A DNA stretch of 64,000 bases from positions 1,302,001-1,366,000 of the forward strand of contig NZ_FOYQ01000002.1 in assembly GCF_900115205.1 (NCBI RefSeq), given 5' to 3'. Below, piece by piece: positions 6,070 through 15,877 of the stretch (within the stretch, counting starts at the first letter, position 1; the number at the start of each line of letters is the position of its first letter). The position numbers were made by a program, and so were the translations under genes. This DNA comes from Robiginitalea myxolifaciens. GTDB taxonomy: Bacteria; Bacteroidota; Bacteroidia; Flavobacteriales; Flavobacteriaceae. The notes beneath the pieces are model-generated. The model ran no database searches. It was given only the letters and a program-made list of their open reading frames with translations, and was not told where the DNA came from.

Positions 6070-9000
6070 TTAATCTTTCATTACAGCTATCCTACCTCCC
6101 GAACTCTTGGCACTGAATTCAGGGGCATACATGCTTTGAATTTGGGAAATACCACTGGCAAAATTCCCGGGATTATTAACTCTTAAATCGTATTCAAAAA
6201 TGAAAGTCCCTCTGGGTAGTCTATCGAAGAAAAAATGGGTCGCCACATCTCTTGTAGCCTGATAATAGCCCAGCCCATTACGCCAACGATATTCGGAAAG
6301 CACATCTACCGGTTCCAGGCCAGATCCCCGCAAATCCTTCAAATGAACAAATTCTAGATCCTCCTTGGCCCAAATTACCAGGCGAACTGTAACCAGATCT
6401 CCTACTTGCAATGTATTTTCCTGGTCAATCTTCTGTAGACGTTCTCCTTGCGTACTTCGGGTTTTCTGATAGATCTCCTTTTCGACTTGCAATGGTCCCT
6501 CTGAATCGGAAGTTACCTTATCGATTTCCTCGTAATACTGCCAATAGGCCCCTCCGAATCCAGAGACCGCTGATGTATTGTTAATCGTAATTTTTGCCAG
6601 GGATTCGTCTACTTCCTCATTATCCCATCTAAGCTGAAAATACCCCGTACCTGCTTCCTTAGTCACTTCCTTCAGCTTTGCCTGAGGTATCTGTCCGCTA
6701 TTCAGTTTAATTTCCATACCATCCCGTACAGACAGCCAATCTGTACCATTCATTACCAGGGCATATATTGCTTCCGAAGTAGCCTTAGTAGTAGACCATT
6801 TATGGGTCCTTTTATTTTTCAAAAGCCACAGTTTCATGCCATCAATCCAGGCATCGGATGCCCCAAATTCGGCAAATGTCTCAATCAGAAGTGCCTGGGT
6901 TTCCACTGGAGCTTCATACCAGGAAGTGCCAGCAACAACTTGTTTCCAATAAATCCCATTGGCTTCACTTTCTACTGCTTGTTGCTCCAGGCTTTCCACA
7001 ATGTTTCTTCCTATTTCTGCAAAACCATATCGTTTCATAACCAGGGCGGTTAATGCCTGGTCATACACAGACCGGGTAATCCAATCATTCTTCAGGGTAT
7101 CCAGATAAACATTTACCACGGCTTTTAAAGTTCCTGAAAGCGGTTGTTCCTCCAAATAAAAACTACGTGCGTACAAAAAGTGTATATCGGAATGATCAAT
7201 ACCATCCAAGACAATCGTGTCCTGAGTCTCCGGATCAATAATAGCATGCAAGCGCTTGTTTGAGTTCCCTACATTGTCTCCGGATAAAAGTCTGGCTTTT
7301 CGTTTTTGCGCTTTTTCAACAATGGAAGTATCGAGATAAGTAACGGCCTCTTCAATAACTCTCTCCAGCCGATAATCCTCCTCAGTTCTTATATCCAATT
7401 TCTTCAGGTGGCCATACCCTGCAACGATATGCCGGGTAACAAAATCATTCTCGTCACCTCCTGCAAACCAGGGAAAACCACCGCTTTTCAGTTGAAGTTC
7501 CTTGAGTTTACTAACCATTTCCTTTTGGACATCGCGGGTGTTGCCTTTCTTGAATAGCTGGCCTAAACGGGCCTGCTTCTCCTTCTCATCGAGGGCCTCT
7601 TGAACCCAGGGAGATTCTTCGAGTAAGATCGTTTTTAGACTTTCATTGCTTTCCAGGGGACGGGTGGAAATCTCCTGGTCTTCCCAACTGGCAAAAAGCG
7701 TCTCCATTTCAGGATTCTCATCACGAATATGAGAAGCTATGGCATTGGCATAGAACCTGGAAAAGGTCTGTTCAGCACACTCATGGGGAAATTCCATAAG
7801 GTAGGGAAGAGCCTTAACAGCCATCCAGGCCGGGTTCGATGTATATTCCAAGCGGAATCCAAGACTTTCCAGGGAAGGCTTTCCGTTTTGCTCAAGTTGT
7901 GGGAAAGCAAGGGTAGTTTTTTTTCCGGGTTGAATCCAGAATGGTTTGGATTCCGTGATCATCAATCGATTTGATAGTACTGGAATAACTTTCAATTCTC
8001 CGTCGCTTTTTTGCCCTGTTGTAGCCACAGTTTTGATCTCCAGAATCTCCAGGTACTCCGGCACCACCAACTCCCATTCCAGATTCTGACTGGCCCCTGG
8101 ATCGAGGGTAAACGATTGTTGTCTAAGATTGGAACTAACATTGGCATTGAGCACCTGTCCGGTAACATCTTCCAATGTCAGACCGTTCATTAATGTAAGT
8201 TGGGCAGTTCCTTGCTGAGGTAGTTCGGTGAGGTTGCTCACTTTAGCAGAATACACCAGGGTATCTCCTGATCGAAGGAATCTGGGATAATTAGGAACTA
8301 CTGAAATATCTTTTCGCGTGACTGCCTTATGTTCTAAGGCCCCAACATCGAGTTTACGGGTGTGCGCTAATAACATTAGACGCCAGCGGGTAAGCGCTTC
8401 AGGCGCATTGAATTCCAAACGTACTTCTCCTGATGCGTCTGTCCTGAGTTGAGGCATGAAAATTGCCGTTTCGCGCAAATCACTCCTTGGCCCTACGTTT
8501 TCTAATGCCCGAGCGCCTTGTTTGGTTGTAATCACGATTACCCCATTCGCCCCGCGTTCACCGTATAATGTTGCAGCACTTGAGCCTTTCAGCACGTTGA
8601 TATCGGAAATATCTCCGGGTTTCAGCAAAATCTCATACTGTAACTGAGTCATAGGAACACCATCTACTATGATCAAGGTGCGATCATTGACAGATACTGA
8701 ATTCATTCCTCGAATAACGACATTGGAGGCAGCTCCAGGTGCACCGCTAGTCGCCGAAATTGTAACTCCACTGACCGTTCCTGTTAATTGACGGTCAATA
8801 TCATTGACTACCTCCTCGGCCTCGTCATAAACTACAGTATAACCCAACGCATTCTTTCTGCGCTGAATTCCGTAGGCAGTAACGACAACTTCATCCAGTG
8901 CCTGGGCATCCTCGGAAAGGGAAACATTAACCGCTTGCGATTTCTTGACCGATATCGAAGTACTTGAGAATCCGAGGTAACTAAAGATCAGGACGGAACC

Positions 9001-12000
9001 CCTGGGGGCATTCAGGGTATAAAATCCATCAAAATCTGTCTGTGTTCCCAAGGTGGTGCCTTGCACTATAACATTCACCCCAGGCAAGGGCAAACCCATT
9101 TGATCGGTAACGATACCACTAATATTTCCTTCTTTGCGCGGTTGAGCGCGTAATTTTTCCCGCCTTAGCTTATGCAAATATCCGGAAGTCTCGTAGGTAC
9201 CCTTGCCAAAGTTCAAGCCAAACCATCCTATTTCAGGAAATACCGGTAAGGGTGGAAACTTGAATCGTCTTCTATCCCTGTTGAATATCCGGAAATAAGA
9301 AGTATTGAAAGAGCCATAGGTATCGACCCGAGGGGCGGAGTTATTGTCATAGTAATAGGAAGTGTTCAGGTCAGTTGGCCATGAATTCGCTTTGAACTGA
9401 TCTAATGAGGAATCGTATAGGGAAGCCAGCACCTCTGCGTTGGCCGCAGCCCCATTGGAATCGGTGATTCTAAAGGACCAGGATTCCGGGGTCCCTGGAA
9501 CAAGCTTGTCCCGGAAACTCAGGGTTTCAATATTCAGTTTTTTGGGAGCTTCCGGAAAATTAACGGTAACCTGATCCTGGAAAACCATATTATTCCATAC
9601 GTAGTAGAGATTGAATTCAATCCGATCCTTATACTCCGGTGATACCGGAATCCCTACCTGTTGTTTGCTGTCATTCAGCGTTCCACTGTAATTGAATACG
9701 AGCTTCTTCTCGTAGTAGGCATCGAGATGGAAAGTAAGTGCCCTGGCAGGGGAGGCAAATTCCATCAGTATGAATCCATCCTCCTTGAAATCAACATTTA
9801 ATAAGTTGTAATCAAAGCGTGTGTCCATAGTAACAGTACTACCATTTGGATCGAACAGATCGAACTGGCGCTTAAGGTTTACGGTATCCTGCCGAGAATC
9901 AGAAGCCATTAGCTCAATGCGATAGGTTCCCGTTTCCCAATCCAAAATTTCAGGTATATCTACTGTGGCTTCTCCATCAATAACAAGGTCTGCGGTATAG
10001 ACGATCTGGTCAACAGGCCAATTTTCTTTTAGGTCCAGACTATCGTAGGGCTCATAAGGAAAGGCGCTACGGTATTCTTCCCTGTTAAGAGTATGCACTT
10101 CTACTGTTTGCCAGGGTTTCTTTCGCAGTACATATTTCGGTTCACGCAACTTATGAATCTTAATGCTGGCATTGGCCTTGGCTTTGCCGCCATTTAAATT
10201 CCGGGCTTGCACGGCAAAGCCTTGGGTTTGTCCTTTGCGCCAGGTAGGTTTCAGCAGCAATTCGGCATTTAAGTTATGGTCGCCTGCTTGAACAAAAATT
10301 TCTCCTGTCCGCGTCTCGCCATTGATGTCCGTTACCTCGGCCAGGACCTTAAAGCTGTAAACTCCTCTGTCCTTCGGGACTAAGGAAGAATCTGGCAGGG
10401 CTCGGAATGATAGCTCAAAAATTCCCTCCCGATTGGTCGTAGTTTCGCCTTCCGCCACAATCGCTGTAGGGGTTTGCATATGGTAGAAGTTTGGCAATCG
10501 GGTAACCGAATACTTCACCAGAGCGCCATCGATACCAGCTCCCAGGAACGCCTTGGCTTGTCCACTTACCAGGATGTCGTCCCCAAGAAGTACATCGGCA
10601 GTTATACTATCCATCTGCACCTCAAAGCGGGGCCTTTTGTATTCTTCCACTGAAAATTCAGTCTCCGCCCAATCAAAATCATCTACCTTATACCAGTACG
10701 GATCGTCATCCCCATCTTCATTAAAGTCCTCGTCCAGTTCAATGCTGAACTCCCCGGTAGCAATTGTCCTGGGTAATTTATAAGAGCCGTGAACCGAACC
10801 ATAATCATTGGTTTTCAGCCGAAACTCCTTAAGCTCCTGGTTGTTTGAATCATAAATGACTATAGTCACCCAGGTTTTTGGAACGACCCGCGTTTTGCGC
10901 TTACGGGTTTCAATCAAAAGCCCTTTAAAAAAAAGCTCCTGGCCAGGACGGTAGATTGCCCGGTCCAGAAAGACATAGCCTTTAGCTCGGTGTTCTTCAT
11001 CTTCATCGTACCGACCATTGCGAACAGGTAAATTCTTATTTGAATGTAACAGACTGTCTCCTTCAAGGGCGATCAAAATATCCGGACGGTAACCTTTTCG
11101 TTTCCTACGCACAACATACCGTCCCTGCTTATCAGTTCGTCCGGCCTTAAGCGTTTCCCCCTTATTCAGGATCGCAATCTTTGCCCCTTCCACGGCAACG
11201 CCTGTCTCCCTGTCCAGCACCCGGAGTTCCAATTCTTTTTCCCTTAAGGTGCTCAGTAGCGACAATCGGGTTACCCGAAGTTCCTGGTAGGCCAGAACAT
11301 CTGCCAGATTCACTAATTTGTCCCTTTTACCTGCAATGACAATGTAATTTCCAATGGGCAGCGGAGGCAATCCTAATTCTGTGGAATAGCTGTAATAATC
11401 TGTTCTTTTTTGAACCTTATAGGACTTGACAATGCTAACCGAGCCGGATTGAATATATTCCAGGAGCAAACTATCATTGGACAAGGGAGTTGTATTGCGC
11501 GTTGGGATACCTCCCCTGAAAACGAAAAGATGAAGGGAATCCAAATTTTTGTATTCCACCCGGGTAAGGAATGGCTTATTAGGCAAGACCTGAGATTCCA
11601 TTTCTATACTCACATGGAGCTGCTCTATTTTATTCTTTAATAGCGTAGCGCGAAGCCCCCCATCACTATTGGGATACTGTTCGATTATATCAGTGCAAAT
11701 TTGATGGGCACGCACCCGATGCCCGGCAAGTGATGCTTGCATTTTAGCATTGTATCCTTCAGAAATCCGAAATAAATCCTCAGCCAGGCGAAAACCCAAG
11801 AACGAAGCCACCTCGCTTTTCTGAAGCCGCTTCCACGCTGATTCCAAACTAGCCTGGTATAGTTCAGCACGATTATCCAGCGTACTGTTATCGCGTACAT
11901 AGCCCAAACGTTCATTTAGTACGTAAACATAGGCCAGCGTATCTTTCTCCTTGTGGAATGCCTCGAGTTCCTGCATAATTTTAAGTGCCGGAATTTCAGA

Positions 12001-12753
12001 AAACAAGCTATCCGGAGTATTGAATTCCAAAGCACCAAAGCCCCCTTCACTATCAAAAAGTTCAGGAGATTTCATAAAGAATCGCTCCGCAGGTCTGTCC
12101 ACATACCAACGATCTACCTTAAAAAAATCAAGAGCTCTATGGGCTAGTACATCGAATAAGGTAGGACGCGTATCTAAATCGGCCTGCTTGTCTGCAAGGA
12201 GTTGACTGTAAAGAGCAATATCTATTTGTTTCAGGGAGTCGCTTTTAGAAAGTGACTTTTGGTAGGATTTACCAATTTGCAGGACTAAGGTCGTTGCATC
12301 CCATTGTTTGAAATCAGCATTCGATATGGTATCGGAAAGCGCTGTGCGATTACGGACCTGGTAAAGGTTTTCCAACAAGTATTGCTGAAGTATCCCGGCT
12401 TGGATCGAATAAAGAATATTTCGCTCTGGAAATTCGGCTTGGGCAATAGCCTCTTCCAATTCGCGAAACACAGTCTCCTGGGCATTTTCCTCCAGGTGGA
12501 GAATAAATTTGGATCGAAACAGGAAACTCTTCAGGTGATTCCCCGATAGCTCAGGGGAAATCGATGGATCCTGGTTAGAAAGCCTTTTTTGTTGGATTAC
12601 CTCAGCAATGGAATCTACCAGGCTGGCAGCACTTTTAAATTTACCTTCCAGTTCCAGTGAATCTACACGCTCCCATAATGCGTTAAAATCCTGTCCCTGG
12701 ATAGAAATGGTTGAGAAAAGGAAGACTACAGCTAAAAGCAGGACTCGGGTCAT
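6070..12753 (-). CDS. Alpha-2-macroglobulin-like protein with inserted carboxypeptidase-regulatory and TonB-plug domains
   Basis: A 2227-residue exported protein. A signal peptide (about 1-20) is followed by an alpha-helical Bacteroidota-type N-terminal region (20-380), MG2-type macroglobulin domains (about 380-1200), an inserted module at about 1210-1414, the A2M domain (from about 1420), the thioester domain with CAEQ (Cys1659, Gln1662) and a C-terminal MG domain containing the conserved YAPEFS segment. The insert starts NISGIVTDQMGLPLPGVN (carboxypeptidase-regulatory-like beta sandwich) and continues into a SusC/RagA-type TonB plug ending GVIVITTKQG at 1404-1413; no beta-barrel follows. 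Bacterial macroglobulins trap proteases through the thioester. The upstream DUF922 gene is on the same strand 130 bases away. The frame is open throughout, so this is a true fusion. Confidence 0.93.
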   Translation of the reverse strand: MTRVLLLAVVFLFSTISIQGQDFNALWERVDSLELEGKFKSAASLVDSIAEVIQQKRLSNQDPSISPELSGNHLKSFLFRSKFILHLEENAQETVFRELEEAIAQAEFPERNILYSIQAGILQQYLLENLYQVRNRTALSDTISNADFKQWDATTLVLQIGKSYQKSLSKSDSLKQIDIALYSQLLADKQADLDTRPTLFDVLAHRALDFFKVDRWYVDRPAERFFMKSPELFDSEGGFGALEFNTPDSLFSEIPALKIMQELEAFHKEKDTLAYVYVLNERLGYVRDNSTLDNRAELYQASLESAWKRLQKSEVASFLGFRLAEDLFRISEGYNAKMQASLAGHRVRAHQICTDIIEQYPNSDGGLRATLLKNKIEQLHVSIEMESQVLPNKPFLTRVEYKNLDSLHLFVFRGGIPTRNTTPLSNDSLLLEYIQSGSVSIVKSYKVQKRTDYYSYSTELGLPPLPIGNYIVIAGKRDKLVNLADVLAYQELRVTRLSLLSTLREKELELRVLDRETGVAVEGAKIAILNKGETLKAGRTDKQGRYVVRRKRKGYRPDILIALEGDSLLHSNKNLPVRNGRYDEDEEHRAKGYVFLDRAIYRPGQELFFKGLLIETRKRKTRVVPKTWVTIVIYDSNNQELKEFRLKTNDYGSVHGSYKLPRTIATGEFSIELDEDFNEDGDDDPYWYKVDDFDWAETEFSVEEYKRPRFEVQMDSITADVLLGDDILVSGQAKAFLGAGIDGALVKYSVTRLPNFYHMQTPTAIVAEGETTTNREGIFELSFRALPDSSLVPKDRGVYSFKVLAEVTDINGETRTGEIFVQAGDHNLNAELLLKPTWRKGQTQGFAVQARNLNGGKAKANASIKIHKLREPKYVLRKKPWQTVEVHTLNREEYRSAFPYEPYDSLDLKENWPVDQIVYTADLVIDGEATVDIPEILDWETGTYRIELMASDSRQDTVNLKRQFDLFDPNGSTVTMDTRFDYNLLNVDFKEDGFILMEFASPARALTFHLDAYYEKKLVFNYSGTLNDSKQQVGIPVSPEYKDRIEFNLYYVWNNMVFQDQVTVNFPEAPKKLNIETLSFRDKLVPGTPESWSFRITDSNGAAANAEVLASLYDSSLDQFKANSWPTDLNTSYYYDNNSAPRVDTYGSFNTSYFRIFNRDRRRFKFPPLPVFPEIGWFGLNFGKGTYETSGYLHKLRREKLRAQPRKEGNISGIVTDQMGLPLPGVNVIVQGTTLGTQTDFDGFYTLNAPRGSVLIFSYLGFSSTSISVKKSQAVNVSLSEDAQALDEVVVTAYGIQRRKNALGYTVVYDEAEEVVNDIDRQLTGTVSGVTISATSGAPGAASNVVIRGMNSVSVNDRTLIIVDGVPMTQLQYEILLKPGDISDINVLKGSSAATLYGERGANGVIVITTKQGARALENVGPRSDLRETAIFMPQLRTDASGEVRLEFNAPEALTRWRLMLLAHTRKLDVGALEHKAVTRKDISVVPNYPRFLRSGDTLVYSAKVSNLTELPQQGTAQLTLMNGLTLEDVTGQVLNANVSSNLRQQSFTLDPGASQNLEWELVVPEYLEILEIKTVATTGQKSDGELKVIPVLSNRLMITESKPFWIQPGKKTTLAFPQLEQNGKPSLESLGFRLEYTSNPAWMAVKALPYLMEFPHECAEQTFSRFYANAIASHIRDENPEMETLFASWEDQEISTRPLESNESLKTILLEESPWVQEALDEKEKQARLGQLFKKGNTRDVQKEMVSKLKELQLKSGGFPWFAGGDENDFVTRHIVAGYGHLKKLDIRTEEDYRLERVIEEAVTYLDTSIVEKAQKRKARLLSGDNVGNSNKRLHAIIDPETQDTIVLDGIDHSDIHFLYARSFYLEEQPLSGTLKAVVNVYLDTLKNDWITRSVYDQALTALVMKRYGFAEIGRNIVESLEQQAVESEANGIYWKQVVAGTSWYEAPVETQALLIETFAEFGASDAWIDGMKLWLLKNKRTHKWSTTKATSEAIYALVMNGTDWLSVRDGMEIKLNSGQIPQAKLKEVTKEAGTGYFQLRWDNEEVDESLAKITINNTSAVSGFGGAYWQYYEEIDKVTSDSEGPLQVEKEIYQKTRSTQGERLQKIDQENTLQVGDLVTVRLVIWAKEDLEFVHLKDLRGSGLEPVDVLSEYRWRNGLGYYQATRDVATHFFFDRLPRGTFIFEYDLRVNNPGNFASGISQIQSMYAPEFSAKSSGGRIAVMKD

Positions 12754-12883: not shown

Positions 12884-15877
12884 TTACTCTATAAACCGAT
12901 AATCATTATCCTCGAATACGACTTCCCCGGAGGAATTTAACTCCTCGTAGAGATAATACAGGCCATTCTGCGTCTCTGCATATTTGCTGATTGCCTTGCC
13001 TTCCCAATTATCGGCCAGCCTGCCGAACTCATTATATCGGCGGACCTCCAGGTCCATCCCAGAGGGCGCCAGGGTATATTCGTAAACCGCAGTGCCTTCA
13101 TTATCGCTGGTAGGATTCAGGGAGGTGTTGAAATAAGCGACTTTCACGATTTCCCCGACGGGGGCCCACTCGTAAACCAGTTTGTGATAACCCGATGGCC
13201 CACTTACCGGCTGGCTCCTCTCATCGTAATATGAAAGAGAAACCAAATGCCCCAATTCATTCAGCTGCCTTCGTTGTAAGGCATAACCCGAGTAATTATT
13301 CGTAATACGCCCACGGGAATCGATATTTACAACCCCGGTGGCATAGTCCCTCTTGTTCAATAAATAGCGTTGCCCGCTGATACCACTCGCATTGATGGTT
13401 CGCCGGCCACGGCCATCAAAATACAGTTCCTCGAACAAGGTACCGTAGGTATTGTAGCGATAGCGCGTTGTAGCAACCCCAGGAATCGGTTGATCTTCCA
13501 AATCATATTCATGCACGGCAGTGACTAAACCCGTTTCGTTGTACTCCATGGTTGTCTTGTGGGTTCCGTCTAATGCAACAGGTTTATCGTCGGTATCAAA
13601 ATATCGGGTGGCAACTACATTTCCCTCGGAATCGTATTCCCAACGGGTCAGCGCCACGTCTCCCTTATTTGCTAACGGGCTTCCCAGGGAATCCAGGGTA
13701 TGTTCACTCAGGGTGTTCCCCACGTCGTCATAGGTATATTGGTGGGCCACTACCCCATCGGGCTTGGCCATGGGTAATCCCAGGGTATCCAGGTAAATTT
13801 TTCTCGCAACCTGCCCTTCGGCATTCAGTACCTGCTTAATGGCGGCTACCTCATCATCATTAGACATGAGGTTCCCATAGGCGTCGTAGTTATATTGCAG
13901 GGTAATGCTGTCCCCTTCATACGCATAACGGGTGGCTCCCCAACGATCTTCGGTAAACTTCAGTACATAACCCGGGTAATAACTCGCTTCGAAAGCCAAC
14001 TTCCCATTGTCCCCATATTCGTAGACTTTCATGAAGTAGTCGTCATTGGCTACAATGGGGTCGCCAGCGGCATTTAAACGTTTAATACTGGTCTCGCGGC
14101 CCTTTAGGTCATAGGTATATTCGTAAATTGAAGCCCCGTTGTTATCATAGGTAGGGTTCCCTTCTTGGTCCAGGGAACTGACCCTGGAAATCTGACCGTA
14201 TTCATCGTAGTCGTAGGTAAGGTGATAATCGGATAGATACACCGCAGGAGCCCCGGATTTATCGAATTTACGATAACGGATTCTTTGGTTCTTTTTGTTG
14301 TATTCCCACTGCCTGCTCGCAATAAATTCGTCGTCCAACACCGGGCGTCCTGCCCGATCGAGGTAGCGGGAGTAAATGGTCCGGCCCCGTTTATCCAGGC
14401 GGCGTTCCTCAAAATATATCGGGCCCTCCTTGGGAACGATTTCTCCTTTTTGATTCCGGGAGACGGATCGATAGGTGGAATCGGGTTGTAACCTCCAGCT
14501 TATTTCATATACCCCATCCTGGGCTATCCGTTGGTCTTTATCATTAAAATACTGGGAGGTTATGCGACCGGTAGAATCTACCTGGGTCCGAATTATAGCA
14601 CTCATCAATTTCCGGGTATATACTTTGTCCTGATTTTTGTAGTGCACCTCTGTAATTCCTCCTTTTTTGCGGTAAAGTTCCACCACAGCGGTTCCGAAAT
14701 AACCGCCATTGGTCACCTCCCCGTTGCGATAAAAGGTAATGGTGCGATTCCCGCGACCTGAGTATTCCACTTCATAGGTTTCTCCATTGGGAAATTCAGC
14801 AGGCCCAACAGGCAGACTGGTCAGGAGTTCCTGATCCATTGTAAAATAGATGTGCTTGTAGTACTGGGCACTGCCCCCGGCAAACTGATGGTAGTTATAC
14901 ATGTTCTCTTCGGCAAAATTGGCAGTTTGCCGTAACCAGTCGTCTATTTGGGCTTCCCAGGCCTGCTGGCTATGGTATTTTACACTGTGATCAGTCTCGG
15001 TGTCATAGGCATCCTGCAGGCTGTCCAGCTTGCGGTAATAGCGCTGATGCATCTCCTTCAATTTCGGAGTAGACAAGCCGCCCAGGCCGGTTTCCAAAAC
15101 TTCCTTGCGCATTAAACGGGCGCAGTATTCGGTAATATTGAAGTGGTATTGCTCGTGTCGCAGCACGTCGTCATAGGCCTCCATTCCCTCCAATTTCTCG
15201 GAAAAATCGGGATCCATATAGGCATAAATACTCGGGTTGGAATCGGTAATGACATCCGGACTGGCAATTCCCGAATAGATGGAAGCGGAATAGCCACCTT
15301 CGATGCTGCCGACCTGGTAAAAATCCTCCCAATTCACCTCCCGTTCCGACCATCTGACGATACCTTTTTCCTCCTGCCTTGAATTGGTAAAAAAACCAAA
15401 AACGAACAGACTAACCAGCAGGAAACCTGAGACGGGAAGCGATTTCCAATTCCAGGGTTCGCGGGCAGGCTGCTTGCGCCAAATAAGATAATAGGATAGA
15501 AAGGAAAGGGTGGTGATGAAAAACGTTGCGATCAGCAGGCCAAAACCGGCCGCAGCAAAATAGAGTACGCCGCTTTCGGAGTCCCTGAAAAAGCCGGTAA
15601 AGAGGAGAAGGATTAAGGTTAGGCCGGCCGAATAGCCCAGGTTGCAAAGCAGAATGCGCCCGGATAAATGGCTCGTTTGCTCTCCCGTCCCCAATGCGAC
15701 TAAGGCGACCAGGTTAACCGCGTAGATCATAAAGACCACAAACAGAATCCTTAGAAAAACGCCATCCGTCCAAAACAAAAAGACCAGGGCTAGTAATAGA
15801 ATGGTCAGGATGGGATAGGGAAGCATGTCCCGCAAAATCCTGCGTGGCGAATAATCAAAGTCTTGGGAGTCCAGCAT
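12884..15877 (-). CDS. Membrane protein with DUF922-like zinc peptidase domain and YD-like repeats
   Basis: A 997-residue protein in three parts. Residues 15-165 hold about five membrane helices. Residues about 175-330 resemble DUF922, a family of predicted zinc-dependent proteases: SEREVNWEDF and then HEQYHFNITEYCARLMRKE, whose HEQYH is an HExxH motif (His241, Glu242, His245). From about 380 to the end there are some fifteen degenerate YD/RHS-like units of the form D..G.P......Y.YD..G. No toxin tip or other C-terminal domain follows. A Bacteroidota-type promoter is visible upstream. The zinc site and repeats are seen directly; peptidase activity and extracytoplasmic location are inferred. 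Confidence 0.75.
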   Translation of the reverse strand: MLDSQDFDYSPRRILRDMLPYPILTILLLALVFLFWTDGVFLRILFVVFMIYAVNLVALVALGTGEQTSHLSGRILLCNLGYSAGLTLILLLFTGFFRDSESGVLYFAAAGFGLLIATFFITTLSFLSYYLIWRKQPAREPWNWKSLPVSGFLLVSLFVFGFFTNSRQEEKGIVRWSEREVNWEDFYQVGSIEGGYSASIYSGIASPDVITDSNPSIYAYMDPDFSEKLEGMEAYDDVLRHEQYHFNITEYCARLMRKEVLETGLGGLSTPKLKEMHQRYYRKLDSLQDAYDTETDHSVKYHSQQAWEAQIDDWLRQTANFAEENMYNYHQFAGGSAQYYKHIYFTMDQELLTSLPVGPAEFPNGETYEVEYSGRGNRTITFYRNGEVTNGGYFGTAVVELYRKKGGITEVHYKNQDKVYTRKLMSAIIRTQVDSTGRITSQYFNDKDQRIAQDGVYEISWRLQPDSTYRSVSRNQKGEIVPKEGPIYFEERRLDKRGRTIYSRYLDRAGRPVLDDEFIASRQWEYNKKNQRIRYRKFDKSGAPAVYLSDYHLTYDYDEYGQISRVSSLDQEGNPTYDNNGASIYEYTYDLKGRETSIKRLNAAGDPIVANDDYFMKVYEYGDNGKLAFEASYYPGYVLKFTEDRWGATRYAYEGDSITLQYNYDAYGNLMSNDDEVAAIKQVLNAEGQVARKIYLDTLGLPMAKPDGVVAHQYTYDDVGNTLSEHTLDSLGSPLANKGDVALTRWEYDSEGNVVATRYFDTDDKPVALDGTHKTTMEYNETGLVTAVHEYDLEDQPIPGVATTRYRYNTYGTLFEELYFDGRGRRTINASGISGQRYLLNKRDYATGVVNIDSRGRITNNYSGYALQRRQLNELGHLVSLSYYDERSQPVSGPSGYHKLVYEWAPVGEIVKVAYFNTSLNPTSDNEGTAVYEYTLAPSGMDLEVRRYNEFGRLADNWEGKAISKYAETQNGLYYLYEELNSSGEVVFEDNDYRFIE

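Follow-up and report, generated by a model that had tools for sequence, protein, structure and literature searches.

A SusC-like N-terminal module at the bait position of a macroglobulin from Robiginitalea myxolifaciens and its relatives

Architecture of the macroglobulin

The DNA analyzed here is a stretch of 64,000 nucleotides from Robiginitalea myxolifaciens (contig NZ_FOYQ01000002.1, positions 1,302,001 to 1,366,000; hereafter the window), in which one uninterrupted frame encodes a macroglobulin of 2227 amino acids (aa) with a SusC-like receptor module at its bait position (Table 1). A first-pass annotation, made from the sequence alone, had described the frame as unbroken, with a plug module of the SusC type directly before the A2M domain and with no barrel, and this was confirmed by Pfam and NCBIfam searches. 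MG2, A2M (55.6 bits, cut-off 21) and bMG10 all scored above the curated Pfam cut-offs, as did the two domains of the insert, CarbopepD_reg_2 (77.2 bits, cut-off 32.2) and Plug (49.9 bits, cut-off 23.9); bMG3 (31.3 bits against 34.9) and TED_complement (18.4 against 22) remained below theirs. The SusC model TIGR04056 matched the insert with an E value of 1.5e-67, only in its positions 2-208 of 981 and with 228.8 bits against a cut-off of 368.25, so that no full-length SusC match is present, while the SusC signature TIGR04057 scored above its cut-off (47.5 vs 46.2). Judged from these matches, the insert is the N-terminal part of a SusC protein without the barrel; taken alone, this anatomy and the SusC origin of the module appear almost certain to us.

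The module has the same order of elements as the SusC/RagA transporters (a PF13715 domain, a TonB box and Plug), and differs from them in being built into a macroglobulin and in having no barrel. The TonB box, which was missing from the first-pass annotation, has the sequence LDEVVV, stands between the CarboxypepD_reg-like and Plug domains and aligns with the boxes of SusC modules. In the report on Bt1763 (PMC7782687), the box of that protein is given as VDEVVV, and its deletion or change to alanines led to levan growth defects similar to those seen upon loss of SusD; when the N-terminal extension (NTE) was solved in solution, the box was flexible and unstructured.

The thioester motif CAEQ had been noted as intact, and Cys1659, Glu1661 and Gln1662 indeed proved to be invariant columns of an alignment (A3) of 27 sequences starting from residue 1056. 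The protein is probably soluble and periplasmic, given its signal peptide and the lack of a lipobox; by pattern, a lipobox was found in 1 of 86 long-type proteins and not in the window protein.

Table 1. Features of the macroglobulin gene and its product (window positions)
Feature	Residues	Position	Strand	Basis
Long-type macroglobulin gene, SusC-derived bait (2227 aa)		6070..12753	-	frame, Pfam, NCBIfam
Signal peptide without lipobox	1-21	12691..12753	-	by eye, lipobox pattern scan
MG2 domain	591-677	10723..10983	-	Pfam
SusC N-terminal module, bait position	1207-1416	8506..9135	-	module HMM; TIGR04056 match 1210-1415
CarboxypepD_reg-like domain (PF13715)	1211-1291	8881..9123	-	Pfam
TonB box LDEVVV	1286-1291	8881..8898	-	sequence, alignment to SusC modules, box VDEVVV of Bt1763
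TonB-dependent receptor Plug domain (PF07715)	1317-1405	8539..8805	-	Pfam
A2M domain (PF00207)	1429-1515	8209..8469	-	Pfam
Thioester motif CAEQ	1659-1662	7768..7779	-	sequence, alignment
bMG10 domain	2088-2212	6118..6492	-	Pfam

Location of the module at the bait position

The macroglobulins of Escherichia coli (YfhM/ECAM; structures 5a42, 4ziq and 4rtd) and Salmonella (4u48) share MG2, A2M, bMG10 and the CxEQ motif with the window protein. They also share the interval, between the bait-region and A2M domains, in which the insert lies; this interval holds a SusC module of about 210 residues in the window protein, whereas the bait of the E. coli and Salmonella proteins is a short disordered stretch. 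In the E. coli protein the Pfam bait-region domain ends at residue 905 and A2M starts at 976, and the bait residues named in PMC4498604, 923-942 and 947-963, fall between these two borders. The Pfam bait-region model gave no match in the window protein itself; in two relatives that it does match (L065 and L091), the module is located between this domain and A2M. Profile alignment of the window protein to the E. coli protein covered the MG2/MG3 part only, and the Pfam borders were used instead.

Two AlphaFold2 models, each built from 27 aligned sequences, were generated for residues 481-1530 (mean predicted local distance difference test score (pLDDT) 74.7) and 1056-2227 (mean 69.3). Both placed the insert at the bait site, between strands 1107-1114 and 1430/1431-1437. 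The idea that the plug module replaces or extends the bait region, put forward in the first-pass annotation, therefore holds in the sense that the module lies at the bait position and takes up all of it. Block-mean pLDDT of the CarboxypepD_reg domain was about 67-81 in both models, and the TonB box with the linker that follows it, between the module domains, stayed below 50 in both. Such a low value is what one would expect of an exposed flexible linker, which makes the protease-cleavable role suggested earlier for the insert a plausible one. With a predicted template modelling score (pTM) of about 0.5, the models are silent on where the module packs. The top structure-search matches of both models were the E. 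coli and Salmonella macroglobulins, and the nearest solved structures of the module were SusC homologues such as 8aa4 and 5t3r.

Bait states among related macroglobulins

A scan of named genomes yielded 79 loci, taken from the best 80 of 574 confirmed stretches and biased towards full-length matches to the query. These loci, ten further long-type genes and the window gave a set of 90 macroglobulins (L085, with a split frame, was left out of all counts). The tree omits a duplicate (L048), partial proteins (L087, L094 and L105) and four proteins for which no anchor could be located (L049, L060, L077 and L118). When our own hidden Markov model (HMM) of the module was applied to full-length proteins, all matches above 13 bits fell in the bait interval, and matches elsewhere reached only 5-6 bits. 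At least one module domain was present in the bait of 59 of the 82 relatives: 33 baits contained the full module, 18 the CarboxypepD_reg part and eight the plug, while a further six had only a box-like match and 17 had none. Since many relatives have the module at this very site, an assembly error or chance is an unlikely source of the fusion.

On a tree of the C-terminal half of the body, the bait state changed 27 times among these 82 proteins (shuffled mean 42.5, least possible 4). This is a quick tree; some of its long branches come together, and L079, L083 and L097 each fill less than half of the columns. The state differs even among close species: full, plug and no module occur within Lutibacter, and full, CarboxypepD_reg and no module within Tenacibaculum. 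The window protein belongs to a clade of six, all with the full module (Shimodaira-Hasegawa-like approximate likelihood ratio test (SH-aLRT) 100).

At four loci (L073, L063, L098 and L100) the whole or the end of a further macroglobulin lies upstream of the plug-bearing copy on the same strand; the neighbouring copy at L073 has no module in its bait. The macroglobulin and the module of L045, recorded as Marinifilum sp. D737, group with those of Flavobacteriaceae, which may reflect transfer or a misnamed record. Short-type macroglobulins (L036-L040; about 1830-1860 aa) occur in the same genomes and have CxEQ, as the long type does; their baits are short and alike, with no SusC piece recognized by eye (seven loci), and four of the five have a lipobox by pattern.

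A survey across Bacteroidota revealed that, within the same family, a SusC module or part of one in a macroglobulin bait is not a lone oddity of the window protein. An A2M match was found in 176 of 392 genomes of the phylum. In a scan of the 392 genomes with a fusion model, in which at most five first-look candidates were scored per genome and the counts are lower bounds, the module was joined to A2M from model position 1-3 to 314 in at least ten genomes (including that of the window) and from position 3 to 310 in at least one more, and the plug was joined to A2M in at least four more. A second, non-random survey covered 90 A2M loci from among the best-scoring listed matches of the phylum scan. 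Within the same family, at least one module domain was present in the bait of 17 of 23 long-type macroglobulins (nine full, five CarboxypepD_reg, three plug; six with none). The seven loci of order f5 gave two box matches and five baits with none; the rest of the class (n = 28) gave two CarboxypepD_reg domains (one weak, 24.9 bits), two plugs and 24 baits with none; and the 32 loci outside the class gave four weak CarboxypepD_reg matches (17-29 bits), one weak match and 27 with none.

Origin and divergence of the modules

Phylogenetic analysis indicates that, within the family, SusC genes have repeatedly been the source of modules. When 35 modules from macroglobulins and 78 from SusC proteins were placed in one tree, a single macroglobulin clade was rejected (approximately unbiased (AU) test, p 0.00025), and a careful tree with 19 and 28 selected rows gave the same result (p 8.5e-60). 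Five modules were each sister to a SusC protein of their own genome: L062 (bootstrap/SH-aLRT 100/100; 78.5% identity), L098 (100/99; 66%), L034 (94/95; 57%), L086 (92/92; 44%) and L073b (89/83; 54%), the nodes of the last three not being starred. These represent 5 of the 16 full-module macroglobulins having any own-genome SusC in the larger tree; because SusC sampling in 12 genomes was queried with the L034 module, own-genome sisters are biased towards L034-like modules. Homology starts just past the apparent SusC signal peptide in four of the five pairs (inside it in L086) and stops near the end of the plug in all five. L062 and L098 branch as ((A2M, SusC), (A2M, SusC)), a pattern that would fit repeated capture or gene conversion.

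The module of the window protein lacks a comparably recent tie to a SusC: it is 53.6% identical to its nearest own-genome SusC and groups with five macroglobulin modules. A recent copy from the own-genome SusC L154, the nearest in the first tree, was considered and rejected: the fuller tree groups the window with macroglobulin modules, and codons for the same residue agree at only 42 of 119 positions.

The macroglobulin side had the longer branch in all five sister pairs of the careful tree; these modules evolve faster than their SusC sisters. Several residues nearly fixed in SusC (e.g. those at 1337, 1339, 1390 and 1391) are relaxed in macroglobulin modules. The module was less alike than the C-terminal half of the protein in 7 of 10 chosen pairs.

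Remnants of the module in short baits

TonB-box-like strings often remain in baits without the module domains, and in two samples they exceed shuffle level within the class and not outside it. In the first set of 23 module-less or box-only baits (two slices of which, L073a and L096, were cut too long), 11 contained a box + GYG pattern (mean of 0.57 in shuffles, never more than 3) and nine a plug-like scrap (0.04 in shuffles, never more than 1); both patterns had been written after the first sample was viewed. The same patterns were applied unchanged to the baits of the second sample that lack module domains. The box pattern occurred in three of six from the family (shuffles 0.10) and four of seven from f5 (0.12), of which L338 looks spurious, and was at shuffle level in the rest of the class (2/24; 0.49) and outside it (1/27; 0.47). 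The plug-scrap pattern occurred in one, one, six and none of these groups, respectively, and a stricter box pattern, devised after the second sample was viewed, in four, four, four and none (shuffles 0.01 each). In several short baits, among them L113, L119 and L120, the plug-like scrap comes ahead of the box, whereas SusC has the opposite order.

Possible function of the bait

A receptor fragment that apparently came to occupy the bait site repeatedly points to a trap imitating what it protects, or to one connected with the machinery that drives these receptors. We tentatively propose, with somewhat less than even confidence in the mechanism as a whole, that the window protein acts in the periplasm as a soluble, thioester-based protease trap, with a SusC decoy as its bait. 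The copied N-terminal part of SusC fills the bait position, and the trigger would be the flexible stretch with the TonB box that connects its two domains. A protease attacking SusC receptors of the cell at their periplasmic face would also cut the decoy, which would spring the trap, and the thioester would then bond that protease, by analogy with E. coli A2M. The bait would thus resemble what the trap guards; cleavage and trapping are a predicted role of the window protein.

Several observations weigh against this proposal. The plug is poorly modelled (pLDDT about 35-69), so that it may or may not be folded, and the low pLDDT may stem from the thin alignment of 27 sequences. The module is about as alike as the C-terminal half, or more so, in 3 of the 10 pairs (L047/L074, and the window protein with Muricauda L044 and with Poritiphilus L042, which are the window's own two pairs). 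The thioester Cys is lost in two long-type relatives, L027 and L028, whose baits bear the box. No A2M match was found in nine congeners (one genome being 74% complete), which shows that the macroglobulin is dispensable. Docking to TonB, finally, would account for the kept box equally well.

Such docking is the main rival, although we consider it rather unlikely: the box in the bait would bind the C-terminal domain of TonB and place the trap under active receptors or, in an alternative form, TonB would pull the bait and change the state of the trap, the bait being SusC-like for TonB and not for proteases. A strict box is present in 27 of 35 macroglobulin modules, compared with 56 of 78 SusC modules, despite the relaxed plug residues; box-like strings occur even in the shortest baits, other barrel-less proteins of the same genome bear such boxes, and the box is required for SusC function in Bt1763 (PMC7782687). 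However, modules captured recently would still have the box in any case, most plug-only baits are without it (two of eight have it by pattern), and in the wider class the first box pattern did not exceed shuffle level, though the later, stricter one did. The first-pass annotation had proposed that the plug could guide the protein to an outer-membrane partner, which the analysis did not support; given the intact TonB box of the segment, any such partner would more probably be TonB, on the periplasmic side.

The frequent changes of bait state, even between close species, could also reflect a passive hotspot, in which a tolerant bait loop captures pieces of SusC genes, the commonest long repeats (at least 22-43 SusC-model matches per genome in seven genomes), which then decay there without function. 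The relaxed plug residues agree with this explanation, but it is always the same N-terminal piece of SusC that is found, in frame (other gene families were not systematically sought there), full modules keep the box at the frequency seen in SusC, and box-like strings persist in short baits; we therefore regard it as improbable. Very unlikely, in our opinion, is a structural or quality-control role without trapping, with the body of the macroglobulin serving as a scaffold and the module binding some periplasmic partner. This would be compatible with the loss of the thioester Cys in two relatives, and the isolated NTE of Bt1763 is described as essential, with an unknown role, in PMC7782687; against it stand the invariant CxEQ of the 27 aligned sequences and the structure searches, in which the body is closest to the E. 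coli and Salmonella macroglobulins.

The decoy and the TonB connection might also be combined, in that baits would be reloaded from the cell's own SusC repertoire by capture or gene conversion, while the box would link the trap with the TonB motor and the proton-motive force would thereby position or cock it; we hold this integrated form to be decidedly unlikely. A literature search, which reached few subscription papers, found neither a paper on a macroglobulin plug nor an experiment on a decoy or on docking.

The SusC decoy proposed here bears on what sets the sequence of a macroglobulin bait and on what bacterial macroglobulins guard against, since the bait is of recognizable origin, namely the receptors that these bacteria use for feeding, and was apparently replaced more than once within the family. 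Natural replicates are provided by related species, whose baits are full, partial or minimal and in some cases belong to adjoining gene copies, and the SusC N-terminal module emerges as a part used outside transporters too.

Genomic context and other SusC-type pieces in the genome

The window macroglobulin is the sole A2M match in its genome. Unlike E. coli A2M, it has no lipobox and is not encoded beside pbpC, its neighbours being a DUF922-like protein and TldD. A lipoprotein encoded beside pbpC is the E. coli type and does not define the whole family of bacterial macroglobulins. Directly upstream and in the same direction (window 12884-15877, minus strand) lies a gene for a 997-aa membrane protein with an HEQYH motif and a DUF922-like stretch below the Pfam cut-off, a relative of which (45% identity) is also encoded directly upstream of the Muricauda macroglobulin L044. 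TldD/TldE, which follow directly downstream, were considered as partners and rejected: in three of nine congeners TldD is followed by TldE, and the 1.5 kb preceding TldD contain no macroglobulin, and open frames at the loci of 12 relatives, which reach at most about 10 kb from the gene, gave no match to TldD or TldE of the window.

Other barrel-less proteins of the same genome likewise carry SusC-type pieces on non-transporters, though outside a protease bait. A 757-aa protein (P0002; L304:3979-6249) has an internal Plug (39.2 bits) after the TonB-box-like string LDEVTV, and, by eye, a VWA-like start and a repeat-like C-terminal part, with no match to the barrel families; it is preceded by a VWA-YfbK protein with a CarboxypepD_reg domain and a box. 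An M56 peptidase (L302:586-2529) ends in a C-terminal Plug, and a 139-aa lipoprotein-like protein (L305:2001-2417) consists of little beyond Plug (24.1 bits, cut-off 23.9). A 593-aa protein (L301:1288-3066) shows a box and plug-like motifs by eye, its CarboxypepD_reg match being below the cut-off.

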